Shown: positions 35,262 to 48,613, numbered from the stretch's first letter. The stretch is 64,000 bases of DNA from Chitinophaga pinensis (GCA_945897725.1 CAMDFR010000006.1:1-64000); one strand, 5' to 3'. Notes: generated from the sequence alone by a model not told the origin. Numbers and translations: made by a program.

Positions 35262-35269
35262 TATCTTTA
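35262..35269 (+). promoter_or_regulatory. Putative -7 element (TATCTTTA) for the six-gene operon
   Basis: TAnnTTTA directly upstream (5 nt) of the ATG at 35275. Confidence 0.4.
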
Positions 35270-35274
35270 CAATA

Positions 35275-36189
35275 ATGCGAAAATATTCTTCTTTTCTTTT
35301 ATTTGTGCTCCTATTGATTATGGCGTCTTCTTGTAAAAAAGACCCTTTCATCGACGATAATTTTCCACCTGACTATCACAATGTCAGTACAGCAAAGATT
35401 AAAAATTACATCAATCGAATCTATATCGATTTATTGGGCAGAGAACCTTTAAAAGTAGAAATGGAAAGAGATTTAGATATGCTACAAACAGATAGCTTGT
35501 CCATAGACTCAAGACGCCTATTAATACAAACCTTACAAACAGATACTACTTTTCGTGACGGAGATACCAGTTATCAATATGCCTATTATAATCGCCTATA
35601 TGAAACGCTGAAAGCACGATTGATCGAAGGAGTGGAAGATGACTATATCTATGAACAATTAGGACTTTCCCAAACTGGATTAGCCGCTGCACAATCTGCT
35701 GGAGATTCCTTTCAAATTGCATTGATCAGTGATGATATTGAAGAATTTCTTCGCGTGTTAAGCCTAAAAAATGAATTGAGATTAAAAAATATTGATTTTG
35801 CTATTGCACATAAAATACTCCTAGATAATTATATCTACGAAACCATCAACATGAATACATTCAATTTTGTGAACTCAACCTTCGACAATCTTTTATTCAG
35901 GTTTCCAACTGCTCAAGAAGCTACAGCAGGTTATAATATGATCGAATACAACATGAGTGGCAATATACTTGGCATGAATGGGAACTCAAGAGAAGATTAC
36001 CTGAATATTCTTACGCAGTCGCCTGCCTTTAGAGAGGGACTCATCATTTGGACTTTTAGATCCTTATTACAAAGGGATCCTACAGATGCAGAAGTCTCCA
36101 CCTTTATGAATGAATATGGCGCTAACATTGATTATGAATCGTTGCAAAAAACAATAATGTCAGGAGATGAATATGCACAATTTAATTAA
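35275..36189 (+). CDS. Lipoprotein with three LGRxP-like helical modules (DUF4214/DUF1549-like)
   Basis: SPII signal LLLIMASSCKKDP; YINRIYIDLLGREPLKVEMERDL, FVNSTFDNLLFRFPTAQEATAGY, IIWTFRSLLQRDPTDAEVSTFM...MSGDEYAQFN. Confidence 0.6.
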   Translation: MRKYSSFLLFVLLLIMASSCKKDPFIDDNFPPDYHNVSTAKIKNYINRIYIDLLGREPLKVEMERDLDMLQTDSLSIDSRRLLIQTLQTDTTFRDGDTSYQYAYYNRLYETLKARLIEGVEDDYIYEQLGLSQTGLAAAQSAGDSFQIALISDDIEEFLRVLSLKNELRLKNIDFAIAHKILLDNYIYETINMNTFNFVNSTFDNLLFRFPTAQEATAGYNMIEYNMSGNILGMNGNSREDYLNILTQSPAFREGLIIWTFRSLLQRDPTDAEVSTFMNEYGANIDYESLQKTIMSGDEYAQFN

Positions 36190-36198
36190 ATCATACAG

Positions 36199-36690
36199 AT
36201 GAAAAGATTAGTCTACCCAATGATGTTGATGTCTTTTTGTTTCTTTTTTGTGGCTTGCAACAAAGAAAACAAAACTCAATATGGCATCACACAACAAAAT
36301 ATTTATAACAGCGCGCACGAAAAAACGAAACTAAAAACGGATCAACAGTTTATATCCATTCTTTATTCGAATCTGTTTCAGAAAAATATTTCACAAGCCA
36401 AAGCGAATGCGGTTGAACAGTTGGTGCGATCTATTGGTGACAAAACACTTGCCTATGAATTGGTGGTAAGCGATTTTATGAATAGTCCAGATATTCTCAT
36501 CCCAGATCCAGCAACGATGCGCGCAGATATTCCGACTTTTGTTGACAATACCTATAGCCGCTTTTACCTGCGTCAACCGTCAGAAGCAGAAAGACAGTAC
36601 TTTATTAATTTTATCGAAACCAATCCAAATATCACCCCAGAGCTCATTTATATTTCTTTTGCTACTTCGGATGAGTATTTTTATTATTAA
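36199..36690 (+). CDS. Lipoprotein with two divergent modules of the same type
   Basis: SPII signal SFCFFFVACNKEN; FISILYSNLFQKNISQAKANAVEQLV and FVDNTYSRFYLRQPSEAERQYFINFI...SDEYFYY. Confidence 0.6.
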   Translation: MKRLVYPMMLMSFCFFFVACNKENKTQYGITQQNIYNSAHEKTKLKTDQQFISILYSNLFQKNISQAKANAVEQLVRSIGDKTLAYELVVSDFMNSPDILIPDPATMRADIPTFVDNTYSRFYLRQPSEAERQYFINFIETNPNITPELIYISFATSDEYFYY

Positions 36691-36709
36691 ACGAACTTAA
36701 TGATCAATC

Positions 36710-38062
36710 ATGGAAAGAAGAGAGTTTATTAAAAAAGCAGGTATAGTAGCAGCTGGCTCCATTGTGGCGCCCTATATCCTTCCGAGTGGAAGTTTATTTG
36801 CGAAAACGACGGCAGGAGCAGCAGAACATGTTGTCTTTGTTTTATTTGCAGGCGGTGTACGTCAACAGGAATCGGTGCTTCAAAGATATCTTTCAGATAG
36901 TCAAGGATTGGTTGGAAGCGCCTATGAAGGCAATATCATGTTCAATATGCTTAATGGCGGTTCACCGTCAGATAAAATAGTCTTTGGGACAGATCCTAGC
37001 ATTGGTCTACCGGGCACAGTACCCATACCTAAAATATTGAGCAGCACTTTGCAATCGCAAGGTACTTTTTTCCCAGAGGTTGCAGCACAGGGCGTAGGTC
37101 ACTATACTGGTTTAAATACGCTACTAACAGGGGTTAGTACCATAACACAAGGCTTAAGACAGAAGCCAATGTATCCGACCATTTTTGAATATGCCAGAAA
37201 ATATCTTGATCTACCAGCCACTAAAACATGGTTTGTTGGTAATGGCATTGGCAATTCTATTCCTTTACTAAATTATTCTGATCATCCAGATTTTGGTGCA
37301 AAGTATGGAGCGAATTTTTTCGCCCCTAGTGTCACTTTTGGTGCTCAAGGTGAAACCTATATTCGCGATGCGAAACCTTATCATCCAGAAGAAGAATTAA
37401 GTCCGATGTATAAGTTACAAGGATTCTTAAACAATACTTTTGCATTAGAGCAAGGCATCATTGGTGGTGTACATAATACTGAAGAGGAAAAATATCTGAT
37501 AAAGCTTTTCATAAAAGATATGTTTGCAAAAAAGGATGCCGGTACTATCGCCTTTCCTTCGGTAAATGATAATGGAGATTTAACTACGGTAGGTTATGGA
37601 TGTGAGGTGATGAAGGCCTTCACTCCCACTCTCACTGTTATCAATCTAAGCGCGGTAGATGGTTGTCATTCTAATTTTACAGGATATCTTAAATCATTGC
37701 ATAGAGCAGATCATGCCGTGGGACATATCTGGAATTATATTCAAACTCAAATTCCTACCATGAGCGGCAAAACAGCCATTATTGCTTGTCCAGAGCACGG
37801 TAGAAATTTGATGGGAAATAGTATTTTAGATCAGAATGATTGGAAAGCCTATGACCACAGTGATGTGAATTCTACTAGAGTTTTCAGCATGATGGCAGGA
37901 CCGTCCATTCCTTCAAATTTAAGTGTTGGTTCGGCTGGTACTCCTATTGGAGACATCAGAGATTGTGTGTTAACGGTTGCTGAATTACTTGGCATCAAGA
38001 GTCAAATACAGGCAGCAGGGTATATTCCTTCAGGTATCGTTTCATTATTCGACAGAATTTAA
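36710..38062 (+). CDS. DUF1501-like protein with Tat-like signal
   Basis: MERREFIKKAGIVAAGSIVAPYILPSG twin-Arg leader; HVVFVLFAGGVRQQESV; late IACPEHGRNLMGN and DHSDVNSTRVFSMMAGPSIP resemble the alkaline-phosphatase-like DUF1501 family. Confidence 0.75.
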   Translation: MERREFIKKAGIVAAGSIVAPYILPSGSLFAKTTAGAAEHVVFVLFAGGVRQQESVLQRYLSDSQGLVGSAYEGNIMFNMLNGGSPSDKIVFGTDPSIGLPGTVPIPKILSSTLQSQGTFFPEVAAQGVGHYTGLNTLLTGVSTITQGLRQKPMYPTIFEYARKYLDLPATKTWFVGNGIGNSIPLLNYSDHPDFGAKYGANFFAPSVTFGAQGETYIRDAKPYHPEEELSPMYKLQGFLNNTFALEQGIIGGVHNTEEEKYLIKLFIKDMFAKKDAGTIAFPSVNDNGDLTTVGYGCEVMKAFTPTLTVINLSAVDGCHSNFTGYLKSLHRADHAVGHIWNYIQTQIPTMSGKTAIIACPEHGRNLMGNSILDQNDWKAYDHSDVNSTRVFSMMAGPSIPSNLSVGSAGTPIGDIRDCVLTVAELLGIKSQIQAAGYIPSGIVSLFDRI

Positions 38063-38066
38063 ATGT

Positions 38067-39020
38067 ATGAAGAAGATTTTTCATCTAACTTTAATGATCT
38101 CTTTCGTTGCAATAGGCTTTGTGATGCAGTCTTGTAAAAAAGATCCTGTCATCAATCCATATGATCAATACAAGCCAAAGCCTGATAGCCTTGCGGGTGA
38201 TAGTTTGGATCCAGCAAGTATTCAAGGTTTGCACAAAAATATTTTCAAGCCAACTTGTGCCAACTCAGGATGTCACGATGGTACCTTCGAACCAGATTAT
38301 CGAACCATTGAAAGTACTTATAACTCTTTGGTATATCAAGGCATCATCAAAAACTATGTCAGCGCTCCACTTCAATATCGGGTAAAACCAGGTGATGCAG
38401 CCAATTCAATGTTGATGAAGAGAATCACAGAAGACATTGATGGGATCTCTGGCGTGATGCCACTTGTGATTGATCCCAAAAGTGACTGGCCAACAAAGAA
38501 AGAACAGTATATAGCTAATCTTAGCACATGGATCAATAATGGAGCAAAAGATGTCATGGGCAATGCGCCTAGCAATTTAAATTTACTTCCACAAATGAGT
38601 GGCTTTTATGTGGCCTCTATGGGCAGTACTACTTCTTTTTCTAGAAATACGAATGGTGTCTGTTTGATTCCTTCTTCATCAGATAATATCGACTTATACT
38701 TTAGTTTTTTAGATGATCAAACTAGTGCATCATCACTTACTGTAAATGAAATTTCATTTTCTTTATCAGCGAATCATTTTGCTGCTTCTACTCCATTTTC
38801 CTTAACAATAGTGACTCCATTTTCTGATAATGGCTTTTCAGGTATGCCAGTAAATTATACCCACAAATATAGTTTTTCAAATCTTAGAAGTACCTATCCA
38901 ACTGGATCACAAGTATTTGTTAGAGTAAAAATTAAAGACGATGTTAACCCCGCTGTGAGTATTCCATCTGGAGAATCTCTGCCAGTGATTATTCAATACT
39001 TTTCATTTATTGTAGGATGA
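38067..39020 (+). CDS. Cytochrome c-like (PSCyt-type) lipoprotein
   Basis: Start reset to ATG 38067 (MKKIFHLTLMISFVAIGFVMQSCKKDP). NIFKPTCANSGCHDGTFEPD (CX4CH), VKPGDAANSMLMKRI, GVMPLV, LSTWINNGAKD. Confidence 0.7.
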   Translation: MKKIFHLTLMISFVAIGFVMQSCKKDPVINPYDQYKPKPDSLAGDSLDPASIQGLHKNIFKPTCANSGCHDGTFEPDYRTIESTYNSLVYQGIIKNYVSAPLQYRVKPGDAANSMLMKRITEDIDGISGVMPLVIDPKSDWPTKKEQYIANLSTWINNGAKDVMGNAPSNLNLLPQMSGFYVASMGSTTSFSRNTNGVCLIPSSSDNIDLYFSFLDDQTSASSLTVNEISFSLSANHFAASTPFSLTIVTPFSDNGFSGMPVNYTHKYSFSNLRSTYPTGSQVFVRVKIKDDVNPAVSIPSGESLPVIIQYFSFIVG

Positions 39021-39469
39021 AAAAAAGAACGATTATTTATCTGCTAAGCATGCTCACGAGTATCATCCTTGTTTCATCAGCTTGTAAAAAAAAGGATGAA
39101 AACATTGGTACACCAGCACTCACTTTTAAAACACTTTCTTCCAACGATCTATTGGAGTTTTCTGATTCTCTGAACGTCACTTTTAGTTATGAAGATAGTG
39201 ATGGTGACATAGGTTTTTATGAAGCAGATTCTTCTTCCGTATATATCCAGGATAAACGTCTTAGCAAGCCAGATTTATATTATATCAAACCTCTGAACCC
39301 TCCGAATGTACAGCCTTTCATTAAAGGTGATATTCAACTTGGATTAAAAAACATGTTTATGTTGGGAAGCGGTACCACAGAAAAAACGTCGTTTACCATT
39401 TGGTTGAAAGATAGAAAAGGACATATTAGTAACTCAATTGTGACACCAGAAATAACTATTCATCGTTGA
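39017..39469 (+). CDS. Small lipoprotein, function unknown
   Basis: SPII signal SIILVSSACKKKDE; Ig-like body FSDSLNVTFSYEDSDGDIGFYEADSSS. Overlaps the previous stop by 4 nt. Confidence 0.7.
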   Translation: MKKRTIIYLLSMLTSIILVSSACKKKDENIGTPALTFKTLSSNDLLEFSDSLNVTFSYEDSDGDIGFYEADSSSVYIQDKRLSKPDLYYIKPLNPPNVQPFIKGDIQLGLKNMFMLGSGTTEKTSFTIWLKDRKGHISNSIVTPEITIHR

Positions 39470-42400
39470 TAAAAAAACTACATATACTTTTCTTTTTAGG
39501 AATGACTTTTTCTGTGGTGTTACAAGCACAGACTACTTATAATATGTCGAATAATTCTATTGGCGATTGCAATGGAATCTTACTCGATAGCGATGGAAAC
39601 CCTATCACAGCAGGCGACTACGGACATAACGAAAATTTTACTTTTACCATTTGTGTGCCAGGAGCAGATTCAATTATCATGAATTTTAGTTCCTTTTGTA
39701 CAGAGTCGGGCCGAGATGTGATCACATTTTATGACGGTCCGGATACCTTGTCTCCCATGATAGGAATCCCGGTTTCTGGACCTTCTGCCATGCCTGGTAC
39801 CATTATTGCCAGCAGTGGATGTTTAACCGTTCACTTTATTACTGATGCTTCGGTGAGTTGTACGGGATGGATGGCTAGTTGGCAAAGTGTCATTCATACA
39901 CCTGCTACGCCTATCATTGCACCCATTGTTGTACCACCTTGTGGAGCGACTTCCATCACCATCACCTTAGATCAAGATTTGATTTGTGATTCTGTGGATG
40001 CATCTGACTTTGGCATCAGTGGTCCCATGTCACCTGCCATCATTTCTGCCATTCCGATTGGATGTGTTGGTGGTAAAACAAGAACAGTACAATTAAATTT
40101 TTCAACAGCCCTTAACGTCAATGGTACCTATTTCCTTGGCGTCAATGCTGTCTTTGTGGATGCTTGTGGAAATGTATGGAACCTTTCTACAGGGATTTCT
40201 TTTGTGATGAATACTTGTCCATTAAGTGTGGTCATTTCTGCAACAGATACTAACATATGCAGAGGTACCTGCACCTCACTTACGGCAAACATTTTAGGAA
40301 GTGTCACTGGAGTGGTTAATTATGCTTGGTCTGGCGGCATCCCTGCTTCTGCTGGTCCACACGTGGTTTGTCCCATGGTGACAACAACCTATTATGTAAC
40401 AGTGACCAATGCCTTTGCTCCTCCAGGTTACGACACTTTTACCGTCGTAGTAACACCCCGCCCTGTGCTACCCAACGACACGGCACTTTGTCAATCGCAT
40501 TATGCAGGTATTCCTTTGGTGGCGTCACCTGCTGGAGGGTTTTGGGGAGGCTATGGAATACCAGGAAGTGGCGTTGGATGGTTCTATCCCTCATGGGTAT
40601 GGCCGAGTGTACAGCCCATCTGGTATACTGTTAATGGCTGTTCAGATACCATGCTCATCACTGTAAACGCTGCCTCCGCCGGCTCTGATATAGCAGCATG
40701 TCCTGGCGTTCCCCCTTTTATTTTAAGCGGTCAAAACCCTCTAGGTGGGCATTGGCGTGGATTAGGGGTGATTGATTCTATAACGGGATTGTTTAGTCCC
40801 GTGGTAGCGGGTATTGGAACGCATACGTTGTATTATACCATACCTGGTTGTCCTGATGCTCGAAGGAATATAAATATTGATACCTTAACAATACCAAAGG
40901 ATACTTCTGTCTGTGACAATGCAGGTGTTTTTAATTTACAATTTTCTCCATATGCAGGAGTTTGGACAGGCCCTGGGATTGTGAATTGGTATTGGGGGAC
41001 CTTTGATCCACTGCTTGCCGGACCTGGTAGACATAGATTACTTTTCACCATGAATGGTTGTGCAGACTCAATGTTCATCACGGTGAATGATGTTTGGGCA
41101 GGATGGGATAGAACGGCTTGTCCGACCATGAATGATGATACTTTGGCCTTACATACTGGTGCAAGTCCATTGGGAGGTGCATGGCGTGGTGTAGGGATTA
41201 TTGATAGTGTGAGAGGGATTTTTGATCCACAATTTATGAGTGGTGCAAACTTTACGAGCAGCATTTATTATGTTTATCAAGGTTGCACTGATACGCTCAA
41301 TATTTATAATTATTATACTGACATAGGTATAGAACCATTACCAGCCGAATGTCCTAATGATACAGCACTCTTATTGAGTTGGGAAACTACACAAAGAAAT
41401 TTATGGGGAGGCATCTGGAATGGGCCTGGAATAACAGATTCAACAGACTATGGTGTATTCGATCCTACGGTAGCTGGCAGTGGCATACATTCACTTGTTT
41501 ATTCATTGAATGGTTGTAAGGATACTGTCTTGGTTGAAGTATATGCGAATGCAAGTTTAAGAGATACTGATGTATGCCTGTTACAATCGCCATTTAATAT
41601 ACCTTCTAATGCGGTTGTTGGTCGATGGTCAGGTCCTGGAATCATCAATCCAGCTACAGGATTATTTAATGCATCTATTGCTGGAGTAGGGACACATAAT
41701 ATTGTTTTTGTGTCAGCTAACGGTTGTAAAGACACGATGTCATTGACCGTGAATCCTATGCCAGTGATCAATATTGCTGGACTTGCGACTAATTATTGTT
41801 TTAACGATAGTACAGTGATATTGACAGCAACGCCTACAGGTGGTGTATGGAGTGGCTTTCCATTAATCAACGATTCTATTTTTAATCCAATGCTTGCAGG
41901 GCCAGGTTTGCATTTCTTCACGTATACTTATGGAAGTGGCGATTGCATTGTAAGAAAAACAGTAAGCACCAATGTATATCCTCCTTTAAATATACGCACC
42001 ACATTTGCTGATACAACGATGTGTTATAATACACAAGTTAGAATTGGTGCCTCTGGCTCAGGTGGTCCATCAGGCTTATATAATTTTAGTTGGGACCATG
42101 CTTTAGGAAATGGAAGTAGTCATGTCGTGAATAATTTAAGCAGCACTGTCTATTCAGTAGTATTATCTGACGGATGTAGTATGCCAGTATCAGGTACAGT
42201 GCAGGTTTTTGTTGTGCCGCCCTTTACATTTACAGTGGCAACAGATACGATGAAGTGCTATGATAAAGGTTCTTATGCTACAGTTCAAATTTTACCTGAT
42301 TCAGGAAACTATGAGGTGATATGGGGCAAGACCACCATACATCATACTTTTTCTGAAGACTTATTTTATGGCAATGCTGGCAGATATTATAGTTTATCGA

Positions 42401-42999
42401 TGAAAGATTTAAATTCAGGTTGCTTTGAAGACACTTCTATTTGGATGCCTGCTTTTGATGAAGTCATTGCGCACTTCACTCCTTCTCCTAATGAACAATG
42501 TTCAGATCCCAATGATCCAACTTTTGAGTTCTTAGATCAAAGTCAGGGTGGTACCAAAGGTATATGGAGCTTTGGTGATGGCTCTACCAGTGATTATTTA
42601 ATATCGCAAAATAAAACACATACCTATCCTCGACCAGGATATTATCAAGTGATTTTGTCAATTAAAAATGAAGGAGAATGTGCAGACTTTATGGTGGACA
42701 CTGTTTGTGTAGAGATTGCCCCTTTGATAACAGTACCAACGGCCTTTAGTCCGAACCAAGATGGGGTGAATGATAGATTTGGAATTCTGCGAACAAGAAA
42801 TATTCAATTGATAAATGAGTTTGCCATCTTCGATAGATTTGGTGTAAAGGTATTTAGTACGAATGATATCAATCAAAGGTGGGACGGCACCTACAAAGGA
42901 AGAAATCAACCATTAGGGGCTTATGTTTGGATCGTAAAAGCCACTTCTTATGATGGGATTTTGGTGGAAGAGAAAGGACAATTTACTTTGTTGAGATAA
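39466..42999 (+). CDS. Large secreted CUB / Trp-Gly repeat / PKD protein with gliding-motility (CHU_C, T9SS type B) C-terminus; TTG start
   Basis: Signal peptide MIKKLHILFFLGMTFSVVLQAQ from TTG; CUB-like DGPDTLSPMIG...; seven GG-W-x-G-x-GI repeats; PKD GIWSFGDGSTSDY; VPTAFSPNQDGVNDRF...GAYVWIVKATSYDG. Confidence 0.88.
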   Translation: MIKKLHILFFLGMTFSVVLQAQTTYNMSNNSIGDCNGILLDSDGNPITAGDYGHNENFTFTICVPGADSIIMNFSSFCTESGRDVITFYDGPDTLSPMIGIPVSGPSAMPGTIIASSGCLTVHFITDASVSCTGWMASWQSVIHTPATPIIAPIVVPPCGATSITITLDQDLICDSVDASDFGISGPMSPAIISAIPIGCVGGKTRTVQLNFSTALNVNGTYFLGVNAVFVDACGNVWNLSTGISFVMNTCPLSVVISATDTNICRGTCTSLTANILGSVTGVVNYAWSGGIPASAGPHVVCPMVTTTYYVTVTNAFAPPGYDTFTVVVTPRPVLPNDTALCQSHYAGIPLVASPAGGFWGGYGIPGSGVGWFYPSWVWPSVQPIWYTVNGCSDTMLITVNAASAGSDIAACPGVPPFILSGQNPLGGHWRGLGVIDSITGLFSPVVAGIGTHTLYYTIPGCPDARRNINIDTLTIPKDTSVCDNAGVFNLQFSPYAGVWTGPGIVNWYWGTFDPLLAGPGRHRLLFTMNGCADSMFITVNDVWAGWDRTACPTMNDDTLALHTGASPLGGAWRGVGIIDSVRGIFDPQFMSGANFTSSIYYVYQGCTDTLNIYNYYTDIGIEPLPAECPNDTALLLSWETTQRNLWGGIWNGPGITDSTDYGVFDPTVAGSGIHSLVYSLNGCKDTVLVEVYANASLRDTDVCLLQSPFNIPSNAVVGRWSGPGIINPATGLFNASIAGVGTHNIVFVSANGCKDTMSLTVNPMPVINIAGLATNYCFNDSTVILTATPTGGVWSGFPLINDSIFNPMLAGPGLHFFTYTYGSGDCIVRKTVSTNVYPPLNIRTTFADTTMCYNTQVRIGASGSGGPSGLYNFSWDHALGNGSSHVVNNLSSTVYSVVLSDGCSMPVSGTVQVFVVPPFTFTVATDTMKCYDKGSYATVQILPDSGNYEVIWGKTTIHHTFSEDLFYGNAGRYYSLSMKDLNSGCFEDTSIWMPAFDEVIAHFTPSPNEQCSDPNDPTFEFLDQSQGGTKGIWSFGDGSTSDYLISQNKTHTYPRPGYYQVILSIKNEGECADFMVDTVCVEIAPLITVPTAFSPNQDGVNDRFGILRTRNIQLINEFAIFDRFGVKVFSTNDINQRWDGTYKGRNQPLGAYVWIVKATSYDGILVEEKGQFTLLR
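40534..41940 (+). repeat. Seven degenerate protein-level repeats (GGxWxGxGI...GxFxPxxAGxGxHxxxYxxxGCxDT)
   Basis: GGFWGGYGI, GGHWRGLGVI, AGVWTGPGI, GGAWRGVGI, GGIWNGPGI, VGRWSGPGI, GGVWSGFPL in order within the 1177-aa protein. Confidence 0.8.
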
Positions 43000-43089: not shown

Positions 43090-44628
43090 TCATTCGGCTT
43101 TGATGAATCTTGAGGTAGCAATTAGTTTATTATTTTTATTGACAAGCTTGATAAAATACATGCCACTATTGAGTGAATTTACATCTACTGAATACATGTC
43201 TTCATTGACAAAGCAATTCTTACTTACATTAAAATCTTGCTCCATCAAAACACTTCCAATTTCATCATAAATAATTGCATGAGATACTTTATCAAATTGC
43301 GAATTAGTTTGCTCGAATGATATGTAAAGTGTCTCCTTTACAGGATTAGGAAATAAAACTATATTTGATTTTACATCCTTCACAATGTCCAAACCAACTG
43401 TACTGATTGTATCACAGCCAAAGGCGGTGGTATCTGCACCTAAAGTAAAACAAGGCATATTAGGGAAACAGTATGCCCCACATGCAGAACCAAGTTCAAC
43501 ACTGTTAATCCTATATCCACATGCTAAGCCAACACTATCAGGATGTTCTATGGTTGATAAATTATGCCCAATCCAAGAAGGCGTAATATAAATTTTACCA
43601 TCTGGTGCTAAACGCATATCGCCAACATAACTATTAAAAGCAGCAGTATCAATAAAAATTCGAGAACTGTCTAAATTTGTTGCCCATAAATCATATTGAA
43701 ATAACTTTCGAGTAAGACCCACATATAGATATCTATTATTTGGACTAATTGCTACTCCTTGAACTCTGGCGGCATAAGGATCAATTATATTTATCTTTCT
43801 TTGATTACTAAAAGTGCCGCTACATCTATCGAAGTCAAATACATCAAAATACCAAGGGGGTATATCAAATCTATTTCCCAAGCTAACACCAAATACAAAG
43901 GTTTTACCATCGTTGCTAAACATTGATTTGCCTGCTACGCCATATATCAAAGGAAGATTTAAACCAATTACTTGCTCCTTGACAGAATATCCATTTGGGG
44001 TTACTAGGATAATGAAAAATTTATTGCTTCTAAATTTACGTATAACAATCCACCAATCACTTCCGTTTGCATGTCTACATGCGGCTACTGGCAAACATAA
44101 AGTATCATCAACAACTTGGATTAATTCTTTGCCTGGTACAGCCTGTCCCAAACCTAAATTTTCATATTTATCAATGTAGGTGAGATAGGCTTTTGTTTGA
44201 AAATAATCTCCACCAAATGGAGGCATGGCACCTATATTCTCCATGAGAGTTCTAACACAAACCACTTTATCACTATTTGGAAAATCTAAGATGATATGGC
44301 CGTTCCAAGTTACTGGTGCTGAAATATCTGTGTTAATATCGGTAGTATTTTGAACTCTTATAAATGAGCTATCAGTTAATGAGAAATTATTATTTAAGAA
44401 ACTCACTTTCCCTGTTGAATCACAAATAGAAGAGTAAGTATATGTAGGAGTAGGATAATGAGGTTTTGTAACTATCCTCAATGAGTCATTATTATAATCC
44501 ATGACAACTGTATTAAGACCATCATATAAATACCATTGCCTGTCTTGATACTGAGACTTGGCTGTGGACAAAATTAACATAAAGAGAAAAAAAATAATTT
44601 TTCTGACCAATCTGAATTTTATCATCAT
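43090..44628 (-). CDS. Secreted protein, probable beta-propeller-like body, T9SS domain
   Basis: Signal peptide; GVAISPNNRYLYVGLTRKLFQYD and DMRLAPDGKIYITPSW propeller-like blades; SNIVLFPNPVKETLYISF...SGMYFIKLVNKNNKLIATSRF. Confidence 0.75.
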   Translation of the reverse strand: MMIKFRLVRKIIFFLFMLILSTAKSQYQDRQWYLYDGLNTVVMDYNNDSLRIVTKPHYPTPTYTYSSICDSTGKVSFLNNNFSLTDSSFIRVQNTTDINTDISAPVTWNGHIILDFPNSDKVVCVRTLMENIGAMPPFGGDYFQTKAYLTYIDKYENLGLGQAVPGKELIQVVDDTLCLPVAACRHANGSDWWIVIRKFRSNKFFIILVTPNGYSVKEQVIGLNLPLIYGVAGKSMFSNDGKTFVFGVSLGNRFDIPPWYFDVFDFDRCSGTFSNQRKINIIDPYAARVQGVAISPNNRYLYVGLTRKLFQYDLWATNLDSSRIFIDTAAFNSYVGDMRLAPDGKIYITPSWIGHNLSTIEHPDSVGLACGYRINSVELGSACGAYCFPNMPCFTLGADTTAFGCDTISTVGLDIVKDVKSNIVLFPNPVKETLYISFEQTNSQFDKVSHAIIYDEIGSVLMEQDFNVSKNCFVNEDMYSVDVNSLNSGMYFIKLVNKNNKLIATSRFIKAE

Positions 44629-44629
44629 C

Positions 44630-47600
44630 TTATCTTGCTATGTTAAACTTATATTGATGTTTTTGATTTGAGATACTAATCTCAATTATATAAATTCCTG
44701 CAGCAAAAAGACTAACATCAATTCTATCAGGCAATATAATGTTAGGAAGGCTTTTAAACACTATCTTTCCAAATATATCTCTGATAATATATTGACATCT
44801 TGAATCCGATTTATCCTGTACAATGAATAAAACATTATTAGTAGGATTTGGAAAGATACTAATGTGACTGTCAAAAGGTGCTTCTAGTGCATTGAGAGGA
44901 TTCGATTTTCTGTAATCAATTCCCAAAACACATCTTTCATCATCATCCCAAAAGGCATTCAGGTCAAGGCTTGAGATGAATGATCGACAAGTAAACACTG
45001 ATTTCCCTCCGCTAATCGGGCATTGATCTGCAATTGCATAAAGTTGATCCATTATGCCTTCAGTAAAACCAGTGAGTCCAAGATTTAACACAATTTCATT
45101 AATGATTTTTTCATTATTTTCAATATTATTATGTGGTATCACAGCACTATTTTTTATACGAGCATCAACACTTAAATCGTTCTCAATAGAAGTTCGTACC
45201 TCATAAAGTTTGCCGATATTATTTTCTTTCGCCGCAAGGTAAAAACTATCAATTGTATAGCTACTATCTCTCAAATTACTATCAATGTTTAGATCATAAT
45301 AAAGTTCTTTTTTCAACCCCAGTTGATAATCTTCTTCATAAATATCACTTGCTATCAATTCGTGAATGATCTCTTCAGCAACAACTTTTTCATCACCACT
45401 TCCTTCTCCTCCGCCAGCCATTAAACCAGAACCCCCACCAGATCCTCCGTGTATATATGGATCACACTGATAGTTAGGTGTTGTAGAAGGTAATGGTGAC
45501 AATGTAGATCCTACTCCAACCAAGACATTGATGAAAGGATAGAATGGTGCTATATTTTTCGCATAATAGAGATTTGCTCCAGCATAAGAATTGAATGCAC
45601 ATGTATTTGAGTTGAGATATGCCGATGAAGTAAATTCATTTGCCATTAACTTTGTTCCAACCAGTGGTGGGAAGACTCTACCAGTTTGAGATCCGATAAT
45701 ACCAGATGTTCGTAATGTCATCTGATCATAATGTCTCTTCATGGTATTTCCCGCAATATTGTTTGTACTTAAACAATTTCCCATAAATTCTAAACCCCAG
45801 GTCATTGTATCTGTTGTATTGCAATATACAGTATCATTGTGACTCATACTGAAATAAATAGCCTTGCTATTGGCATAGGTGCTACCTACTACTCCACCAC
45901 TAGTATTATCACCTACGACAGAATTATCACTGTATAAGGTTCTTGTTGTATTGCTACTGCTAATTCCCATAATGGAGAAGCCAGTTGTACTATTCATTCT
46001 AATACTATTTCCTCTCACAATACTTTGCACTACATTATTCAAGCTGATACCCAATCTACCACTCACGATTTCATTATCAATAATTTCATAAATGGATGGA
46101 TATAAACTTTGATTCACTAAGATACCTGTAATAACTGGTGTAAAGATTGATGGTGGGTTAGTTTGAAGTTTATTTCTTAGCATTTGAATCTTACTTCTTG
46201 TATTAAAATCCGCTTCAATTCCTCTGGTGTAATTTTTAATGACATTATCTTTTACAATACATAGTGATGGTTGATTTCCGAGTGGCGTAAAGGTGCTGTC
46301 TACCATAATTCCTGTAACACAATTATCCAAAGTATTATTCTGAATGGTACTTAAAACATTTCTACTAATGATGCCATAGCGACTATTGGTAAAATAATTG
46401 TTCTGAGAAATTAAATATCCACCTACTATCGTAGAATATGTAAGCATTGGGTCGGTTCCAAATGACTTATCCAACAAAATTCCTGCACCTGTATATGTTA
46501 GATTTGGTGCCATATTTGTAAATTCATTGTTAAAGATAGATATGTTTGTATTCATTGCATGAATTCCTGTGTAAGCATTATCAAAATAATTGGTGCAGGA
46601 TATACATGGAGAGCCAATAGCAACAGATTGAACATGATCTAAAAAGATACATTCATGAGGTTTTAAAGCCCAATATGGATTGATTAATAAACCCAAATTA
46701 TCTAATGGATCTGGGAAACTAAGGTAAGCACGCAATCCTAAATCTTTACAAATAAAACTACTTTTTATTACTTGTAATGGACTATAAAATCCAGCAAATG
46801 GTTTTACCACTATATCCTTTCTATTTTTATTAAAGGTATCTGCAATGCAATGTGTATAGGAGCCATTTAAAACAGTGATACCCGCAATAGCATCTTCGAT
46901 AATACAATTTTTTGCAATAATGGTACCGTTGCCCCAAGCCAATGTGCCATTATTAATACCCTGCCACATAATGTTAGTACAAGCCGTCAAATAACAGCTA
47001 TCAAGTCGTAAGGTATCACCATCTGTCACATCAATTTTTGCATAAGGTTGCATGTAGATGGCTGTATTTTTAAAAGTAAGATTCTGATCAATCAGCAATG
47101 TGCCATCAAAACTAACATCATTGCAGAACTGACAAGCCGATGAACCAAATATACCACTACTAAAATCAATATCATAAGAAATTAAAACTGCACTTCTTTG
47201 GTCACTGTAGATTTTTAACTTGTCTCTTCGACAACATTGATAAATAGTGATAGCCGTATCAAAAATACATGGAGATTTGCTGTCTGTTATATGTAAGGTA
47301 ACTACATGAGATAAGGCAGCAGCATCAAGAATTGTTGTGAAGTAGGTTCCTGTATAAGTGCTAGGATAACCAGTCAATACATTGCTAACAGTCCAACTAT
47401 ATGTAAGATTTGATTTCGGATTAAGAATACTTAGAATTAGATTGGTATCGCAATTTGTATATGGCAAGGCGAGCATTTGCACATTAGCAGGACTATCATA
47501 GATAGTGGTTGAAGAAGTATAGGTTAGACCTGGAATTAGAGTACTTGTGACAATAAATGAATACACACCAATACTAGAAGGTGTATAAAATCGTAAAGTG

Positions 47601-48544
47601 CCAATAGGTCCTGGGATGGCAATTCCATCTTTATACCATTGAATAGTACCAAGGCTTCCTGCACCTGCATCCAGAGTAGGATAATTACTATTACAAAGTG
47701 AATAAAATTGTTGAAGATTACCACGGGGCATACTATCTGTTTTTATTAGTGAGACATCATCAATGTAGTAATACGCTAAATTCGAAATTGTATTAACAGT
47801 TGTGGAGACGAGTAAAGGCTTAAATGCAGTAACTTGGATGAGCGAAGTATCTGTAAAATTTCCAATTGTTAGAAAATTCAAGGTTGGATCTGTGCAAATA
47901 AATTCATGTGAAATTAAATTCCAATCTGGTGTGCTGGTAATATTTGATGGAGAATTATAAAATATAGAACCTGCTGGAGGAGGAATTGTGGTAGAATTAT
48001 ATGACATGGGGATAGCTCCGGTGGACAAAATAAAACCAATATGACAATAGATTCTACTAGAATCAGACAAAGAGGCATAATAAGAAAGTTTATACTTATC
48101 GCCAAGTATCATCGGATTTATTGAACTGCCAACATATTCTCTCCACTTTTCATTAACTCCACCATAAACACAATTACCTGTACTCAGGGAATATGCAATT
48201 ATTCCAGAATAACCGCTTTGAGAACTATGATCATTTTGGAATCCTCCAAAATTCAAGGGGACATCAACAGGGGAAGTTGAAGTAGCACAAGAATTAAAAT
48301 AATCTGATGTACATTGAGTATAACCGAAAGAACAAGGACCTTCATTTAGAAAAAATCTACTAACATTCAGCCATCCATTGCACATATATAGTTGGGAAAA
48401 TGTAGTGGGGCAGGTCGAATAATTTTCAAAATTGCCATTTGTAACTAAATTGATCTGCGTAAATGCATCTAACGAAATAGTAAATAGCAAAACGTATATG
48501 CAAGCTAATAGTTTCGTCATTTTAGTTTTAGTTAAGGATTTCAT
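44630..48544 (-). CDS. Large secreted right-handed beta-helix-like protein with T9SS domain
   Basis: Start at ATG 48544. NGTIIAKNCIIEDAIAGITVLNG, TGIHAMNTNISIFNNEFTNM, NSRYGIISRNVLSTIQNNTLDNCVTGIMV parallel-beta repeats; HISIFPNPTNNVLFIVQ...GIYIIEISISNQKHQYKFNI. Confidence 0.8.
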   Translation of the reverse strand: MKSLTKTKMTKLLACIYVLLFTISLDAFTQINLVTNGNFENYSTCPTTFSQLYMCNGWLNVSRFFLNEGPCSFGYTQCTSDYFNSCATSTSPVDVPLNFGGFQNDHSSQSGYSGIIAYSLSTGNCVYGGVNEKWREYVGSSINPMILGDKYKLSYYASLSDSSRIYCHIGFILSTGAIPMSYNSTTIPPPAGSIFYNSPSNITSTPDWNLISHEFICTDPTLNFLTIGNFTDTSLIQVTAFKPLLVSTTVNTISNLAYYYIDDVSLIKTDSMPRGNLQQFYSLCNSNYPTLDAGAGSLGTIQWYKDGIAIPGPIGTLRFYTPSSIGVYSFIVTSTLIPGLTYTSSTTIYDSPANVQMLALPYTNCDTNLILSILNPKSNLTYSWTVSNVLTGYPSTYTGTYFTTILDAAALSHVVTLHITDSKSPCIFDTAITIYQCCRRDKLKIYSDQRSAVLISYDIDFSSGIFGSSACQFCNDVSFDGTLLIDQNLTFKNTAIYMQPYAKIDVTDGDTLRLDSCYLTACTNIMWQGINNGTLAWGNGTIIAKNCIIEDAIAGITVLNGSYTHCIADTFNKNRKDIVVKPFAGFYSPLQVIKSSFICKDLGLRAYLSFPDPLDNLGLLINPYWALKPHECIFLDHVQSVAIGSPCISCTNYFDNAYTGIHAMNTNISIFNNEFTNMAPNLTYTGAGILLDKSFGTDPMLTYSTIVGGYLISQNNYFTNSRYGIISRNVLSTIQNNTLDNCVTGIMVDSTFTPLGNQPSLCIVKDNVIKNYTRGIEADFNTRSKIQMLRNKLQTNPPSIFTPVITGILVNQSLYPSIYEIIDNEIVSGRLGISLNNVVQSIVRGNSIRMNSTTGFSIMGISSSNTTRTLYSDNSVVGDNTSGGVVGSTYANSKAIYFSMSHNDTVYCNTTDTMTWGLEFMGNCLSTNNIAGNTMKRHYDQMTLRTSGIIGSQTGRVFPPLVGTKLMANEFTSSAYLNSNTCAFNSYAGANLYYAKNIAPFYPFINVLVGVGSTLSPLPSTTPNYQCDPYIHGGSGGGSGLMAGGGEGSGDEKVVAEEIIHELIASDIYEEDYQLGLKKELYYDLNIDSNLRDSSYTIDSFYLAAKENNIGKLYEVRTSIENDLSVDARIKNSAVIPHNNIENNEKIINEIVLNLGLTGFTEGIMDQLYAIADQCPISGGKSVFTCRSFISSLDLNAFWDDDERCVLGIDYRKSNPLNALEAPFDSHISIFPNPTNNVLFIVQDKSDSRCQYIIRDIFGKIVFKSLPNIILPDRIDVSLFAAGIYIIEISISNQKHQYKFNIAR

Positions 48545-48613
48545 ACGAATATATTTTTTATACAATATAAACTAAAAAAAATAATATCAACGGATTCGTT
48601 TATTGTTTTTTTA

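Follow-up and report, generated by a model that had tools for sequence, protein, structure and literature searches.

Proteins of the DUF1501, DUF1549, DUF1553 and DUF1800 families are widespread and have no known function. One recurrent pairing joins a PSCyt1-PSCyt2 (DUF1549)-PSD1 (DUF1553) protein to a DUF1501 protein and is found in Planctomycetes and Verrucomicrobia, and also in some Bacteroidota; another joins a DUF1800 protein to a DUF1501 protein in Proteobacteria, and also in Bacteroidota. Published work places DUF1501/DUF1800 genes beside chitin synthase in some Proteobacteria (PMC5122149) and verrucomicrobial PSCyt genes, which carry carbohydrate-binding modules, near sulfatases (PMC5615132), and the wider DUF1501 and PSCyt families thereby suggest envelope or extracellular polysaccharides as a possible setting. 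Here we describe a six-gene cassette at 35275-42999 of a 64,000-nucleotide stretch of Chitinophaga pinensis (GCA_945897725.1 CAMDFR010000006.1:1-64000; hereafter the window), which recurs in many uncultured Bacteroidota and appears to be a previously undescribed relative of these functionally unexplained heme/DUF1501 systems; no published description of it surfaced in the open-access DUF1501 papers searched. The locus is almost certainly a conserved operon forming one functional unit, and it is probably a Bacteroidota equivalent, though a distant one, of the Planctomycete-type system that combines PSCyt1/PSCyt2/PSD1 with DUF1501.

The unity of the cassette is evident from its gene order. Of 299 genomes from the same taxonomic order, 129 contain a match to gene 3, which is strong in 71; the weak matches are other alkaline-phosphatase-fold enzymes. 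When genes were re-predicted around 60 of the strong matches, the order 1-2-3-4-5-6 was recovered in 21 of 27 close-clade loci, and 1-2-3-4-5 without gene 6 in 23 of 33 loci of a second clade, which represents a sister form. A wider scan using one genome per species yielded at least 427 relatives, and among the best 80 loci, labelled as Flavobacteriales, Chitinophagales, Saprospiraceae and others, 54 display the complete six-gene order; many of the incomplete ones are interrupted by contig ends or had no gene 3 open reading frame (ORF) called by a simple script. Of the 71 and 72 genomes that hold genes 3 and 4 respectively, 70 hold both (Fisher p 7e-65, uncorrected for kinship). In a gene 3 tree the six-gene and five-gene forms fall into different clades (support 96/85 and 93/62), and several genomes hold one cassette of each. 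In such genomes all five genes score with their own clade, which argues that the block evolves as a unit. A chance neighbourhood is ruled out by the recurrence of the same gene order across deep divergence. The cassette is mostly single-copy per genome, and a strong match to a cassette protein was seen in only 3 of 396 members of a phylum-wide sample of mostly complete genomes, the window's own included; it is therefore concentrated in the lineages found by the same-order and per-species scans.

These results bear directly on an earlier note made from this DNA, which had staked its proposal on the six genes keeping company in other genomes and on their not being a standard DUF1800/DUF1501 cluster. 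They do keep company, and the standard cluster is rejected, as no DUF1800, PF07394 (DUF1501) or PSCyt2 match was found in the window's genome, the assembly of which is 84.7% complete. The ORF coordinates (Table 1) agree with the layout given there of six same-strand genes spaced by 9, 19, 4, -4 and -4 nucleotides, and its four lipoprotein signals (lipobox cysteines in genes 1, 2, 4 and 5), twin-Arg leader in gene 3 and type B C-terminus in gene 6 (TIGR04131, CHU_C) are likewise recovered. For its single candidate promoter, a weak check found only a partial motif, TATCTTTA, at 35262, and no strict TTG-N17-23-TAnnTTTG upstream of gene 1. Gene 6 starts with TTG. The mechanical ORF of gene 4 also begins with TTG, at 37977, and its start is most likely the internal ATG at 38067.

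Table 1. Genes of the cassette, with predicted products (positions counted from the first nucleotide of the window).
Gene	Coordinates	Strand	Predicted product	Further features
1	35275..36189	+	304-aa lipoprotein; helical DUF4214/phycobilisome-linker-like modules; weak PSCyt2/PSD1 likeness	lipobox SSC20
2	36199..36690	+	163-aa lipoprotein; DUF4214 match 8.6e-6; related to C-terminal half of gene 1	
3	36710..38062	+	Tat-exported alkaline-phosphatase-superfamily protein, DUF1501-like	D317, H320, H383 kept; without N-terminal Asp
4	38067..39020	+	monoheme c-type cytochrome lipoprotein, PSCyt1-like plus C-terminal domain	C64-x4-C69-H70, M131-P132
5	39017..39469	+	150-aa lipoprotein, unnamed family	perhaps Ig-like, from motifs
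6	39466..42999	+	1177-aa T9SS type B protein	CUB, six W-x-G-x-G-[IV] repeat motifs, PKD, CHU_C

A few loci depart from this arrangement. In two (L061 and L063, genomes G078 and G031) gene 3 stands without its usual neighbours, and the family f17 to which they belong, also seen in G016, G057 and G044, has genes 3 and 4 on different contigs, a pattern that suggests either a split cassette or assembly breaks. Several Flavobacteriales loci (L106, L109, L119, L138 and L149) encode secreted proteins of 847-1095 amino acids with similar N-termini upstream of gene 1. Elsewhere in the window's genome (L032:7279-7833), a protein resembles by eye a REP (repetitive extragenic palindrome)-associated transposase.

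Gene 4, which had been described as a cytochrome-like lipoprotein, is predicted to be a monoheme c-type cytochrome whose spacer is unusual, with CX4CH rather than CXXCH as the motif at which heme would be attached; this motif and a later MP are invariant in 114 of 114 relatives. In profile comparison the N-terminal half of the mature protein aligns with PSCyt2-type proteins over their PSCyt1 region (95%, E 4.4e-8). The PSCyt1 Pfam model (PF07635) finds no match in the window's gene 4 and one among 30 relatives, at 0.032. Short versions of 156-181 residues, found in several lineages, lack the C-terminal domain. Seven loci (L047, L048, L050, L051, L053, L058 and L059) have a gene 4 of 163-175 residues comprising the heme region only, and short ORFs of about 127-144 residues elsewhere (G037, G007, G011 and G178) match the C-terminal domain only. 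The invariant heme motif and the lipoprotein signals would be compatible with an electron-transfer module, in which the heme lipoprotein would carry electrons at the surface and be held in position by the remaining products; however, there is a single heme, the cassette includes no multiheme or porin partner and the phosphatase-fold partner is left without a reason, making this reading highly improbable.

That partner, the gene 3 product, bears a twin-arginine translocation (Tat) signal with R3 invariant and R4 present in 126 of 135 homologues. Its structural model (predicted local distance difference test, pLDDT, 83.5) has 373 PDB matches at E<=0.001, the best 50 of which are all sulfatases, alkaline phosphatases, phosphodiesterases or lipoteichoic acid synthases (Foldseek best E 3.3e-10, probability 1.00, template modelling (TM) scores about 0.35-0.49). 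The C-terminal third also aligns at 3.5e-6 with a type I phosphodiesterase of the alkaline phosphatase superfamily encoded in the same genome (L032:103-942). The model and the alignments thus both assign gene 3 to the alkaline phosphatase superfamily fold. A search for a sequence-close solved relative returned only two chance antibody light chains, which were dismissed. Across all 135 homologues D317, H320 and H383 are invariant, their counterpart in DUF1501 references being the D-H...DH motif, and the N-terminal Asp site is occupied by A, G or S; E362 takes the place of an Asp in 128, and position 363, that of the second-site His, carries His in 81 and Cys in 50. Comparison with nucleotide pyrophosphatases leads us to infer that one of two metal sites is retained, the assignment being made from sequence alignment; the full two-metal site and nucleophile of the superfamily are not present in the 135-homologue alignment.

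The affinity of gene 3 to DUF1501 is more distant. PF07394 has no match above its gathering cut-off in gene 3 or elsewhere in the incomplete assembly, and among 21 relatives two match DUF1501 (best 1.9e-4), the Sulfatase family being matched at 3.6e-5. The DUF1501 motif pattern (a GG close to the N-terminus, followed by D-x-H, E-x-G-R, N and D-H) is present in the gene 3 columns, with a D-x-x-H spacing one residue off the reference D-x-H. With cleaned reference sets, hhalign gave 16% against DUF1800-type and 58% against Planctomycete-type DUF1501; a value of 86% is not relied on, the reference sets having been faulty and the signal region included. Gene 3 is therefore DUF1501-like, as the earlier note had labelled it, yet outside the Pfam family PF07394.

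The AlphaFold model of gene 1 (pLDDT 93.8) is entirely helical. Its top PDB matches are phycobilisome-linker domains, recognised as modules of about 100 residues with probabilities near 1 and E >0.001, and no solved fold covering the whole protein was found in this structure search. DUF4214 is the family most often matched among 36 relatives (24 of them, best 2.1e-10), ahead of PBS_linker_poly (15, best 1.6e-7), PSCyt2 (six, best 3.5e-4) and PSD1 (six, best 2.3e-3); the window's gene 1 matches neither Pfam PSCyt2 nor PSD1 (DUF1549/DUF1553). Its lipobox cysteine does not vary in A3 and A4. In profile comparison gene 2 aligns with gene 1 over the C-terminal half of the latter, and 20 of its 32 relatives match DUF4214. 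Both proteins, in which the earlier note had seen LGRxP modules, are therefore primarily DUF4214/phycobilisome-linker-like, gene 1 having a secondary and weaker PSCyt2/PSD1 likeness.

Gene 5 was assigned to no family in a domain search of the gene and its relatives. Gene 6 is cargo of the type IX secretion system (T9SS), type B: its C-terminus matches TIGR04131 (1.8e-13, 50.5 bits against a cut-off of 35) and CHU_C (4.4e-16), and it contains CUB and PKD domains and 34 cysteines. Directly downstream, on the opposite strand (43090-48565), lie two T9SS type A cargo proteins (Por_Secre_tail), one of 1311 amino acids with weak pectate-lyase-like similarity. The cassette could itself be a T9SS cargo module, with genes 1-5 as accessory lipoproteins that help the giant to fold, modify it or keep it in place for adhesion or gliding, the phosphatase-fold protein altering its attachment. 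Consistent with this, genes 5 and 6 overlap by 4 nucleotides in 22 of the 54 complete loci, the giant measures 1154-1207 residues in 63 relatives (pre-selected within 1100-1300), the translocon gene SprA is present in the window's genome and many Flavobacteriales loci have a gene closely 3' of the giant, three of four tested belonging to the PorP/SprF family above cut-off. Yet the five-gene clade lacks the giant, which hence is not the core reason for genes 1-5, and a heme protein is not known to have a role in T9SS cargo anchoring; we consider this explanation unlikely. The coupling to a T9SS surface protein claimed earlier accordingly holds for the six-gene clade and not for the five-gene one.

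The residues that follow the lipidated cysteine give a lead, not a result, on where these proteins might reside. The lipoprotein families of the cassette are rich in K-K-[DE] here, and K(x)[DE] starts occur in 66/89, 64/83, 46/78 and 50/82 members of four of them (59-77%), as against 23% of 83 other lipoproteins from the same loci. This recalls the lipoprotein export signal (LES) for surface export in Capnocytophaga, C-X-K-(D/E)2 (PMC5080379), a consensus that may not be the signal of this lineage, and raises the possibility that the cassette lipoproteins are surface-exposed.

Our best overall explanation, put forward tentatively and at somewhat below even confidence, is that genes 1-6 encode one envelope-tethered heme-plus-metal assembly on an anionic surface polymer. 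Genes 1 and 2 would provide its scaffold at the outer membrane; gene 3, exported in the folded state, could bind or cleave an anionic ester in an envelope or extracellular polymer by means of the one metal site left to it; gene 4 might perform one-electron redox chemistry through its heme; and gene 6 would serve as a surface client or attachment part. The ester and redox chemistry in this form is doubtful. More speculative still is the idea of an undescribed envelope machine of uncultured Bacteroidota, existing in free-standing five-gene and T9SS-linked six-gene forms, in which a one-metal phosphatase-fold protein and a heme lipoprotein of the c type would act together on a surface polymer.

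Several observations weigh against the proposed assembly. Because the 135 homologues of gene 3 have neither the N-terminal Asp nor a conserved nucleophile at the usual place, gene 3 may bind rather than catalyse. A Tat substrate remains periplasmic unless carried further, and outward-facing lipoproteins would leave gene 3 across the membrane from them unless it too were moved. Genes 1, 2 and 4 of the window miss the strict C-X-K-(D/E)2, with one acidic residue only. Further, the profile evidence for kinship with DUF1501 and PSCyt2 is marginal and shifts with the alignment, the sister clade has no giant and the proposed function carries no named substrate. An alternative would have the cassette feed oxidatively or hydrolytically on sulfated or phosphorylated polysaccharides, as proposed for the verrucomicrobial PSCyt proteins. 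The fold of gene 3, the heme kinship of gene 4 and the sulfatase neighbours and carbohydrate-binding modules of PSCyt genes (PMC5615132) speak for it; but no recurrent glycoside hydrolase, SusCD or sulfatase neighbour was noticed among the partly annotated flanking genes, and the cassette is mostly one per genome, whereas PSCyt2/DUF1501 pairs reach 7-10 copies in one Bacteroidota genome. We regard this as rather improbable. A defence system is set aside, as PADLOC returned no match.

Whichever function applies to the cassette, its parts can be set against the known systems. The modules of genes 1 and 2 resemble DUF4214/phycobilisome-linker proteins, but here they are lipoproteins in a conserved heme/phosphatase-fold operon, and no phycobilisomes are involved. 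With the DUF1800-DUF1501 pair the cassette shares a Tat-exported DUF1501-type protein with a helical DUF protein encoded upstream and a common D-H, E-x-G-R, N, D-H motif pattern; it differs in the lack of a DUF1800 match in the window's genome (the C-terminal part of gene 1 has weak similarity only, 78%, E 1.9e-5) and in having a heme lipoprotein. The likeness to the PSCyt/DUF1501 pair extends to a predicted PSCyt1-like heme-binding domain, a helical, weakly PSCyt2/PSD1-like partner encoded just upstream of the DUF1501-type gene, and an alkaline-phosphatase-fold DUF1501-like partner. The Bacteroidota counterpart suggested by the earlier note, with these domains split over lipoproteins, is sustained by links each of weak to moderate support. 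Unlike that pair, the cassette places its domains on separate lipoproteins, has a gene 3 unrecognised by PF07394 and adds two DUF4214-like lipoproteins, a small lipoprotein and, in one clade, the T9SS giant. By splitting the same ingredients into small, strictly linked and mostly single-copy genes, and by adding a heme protein and a T9SS client, it makes the parts easier to test and suggests which of them make up the shared core.

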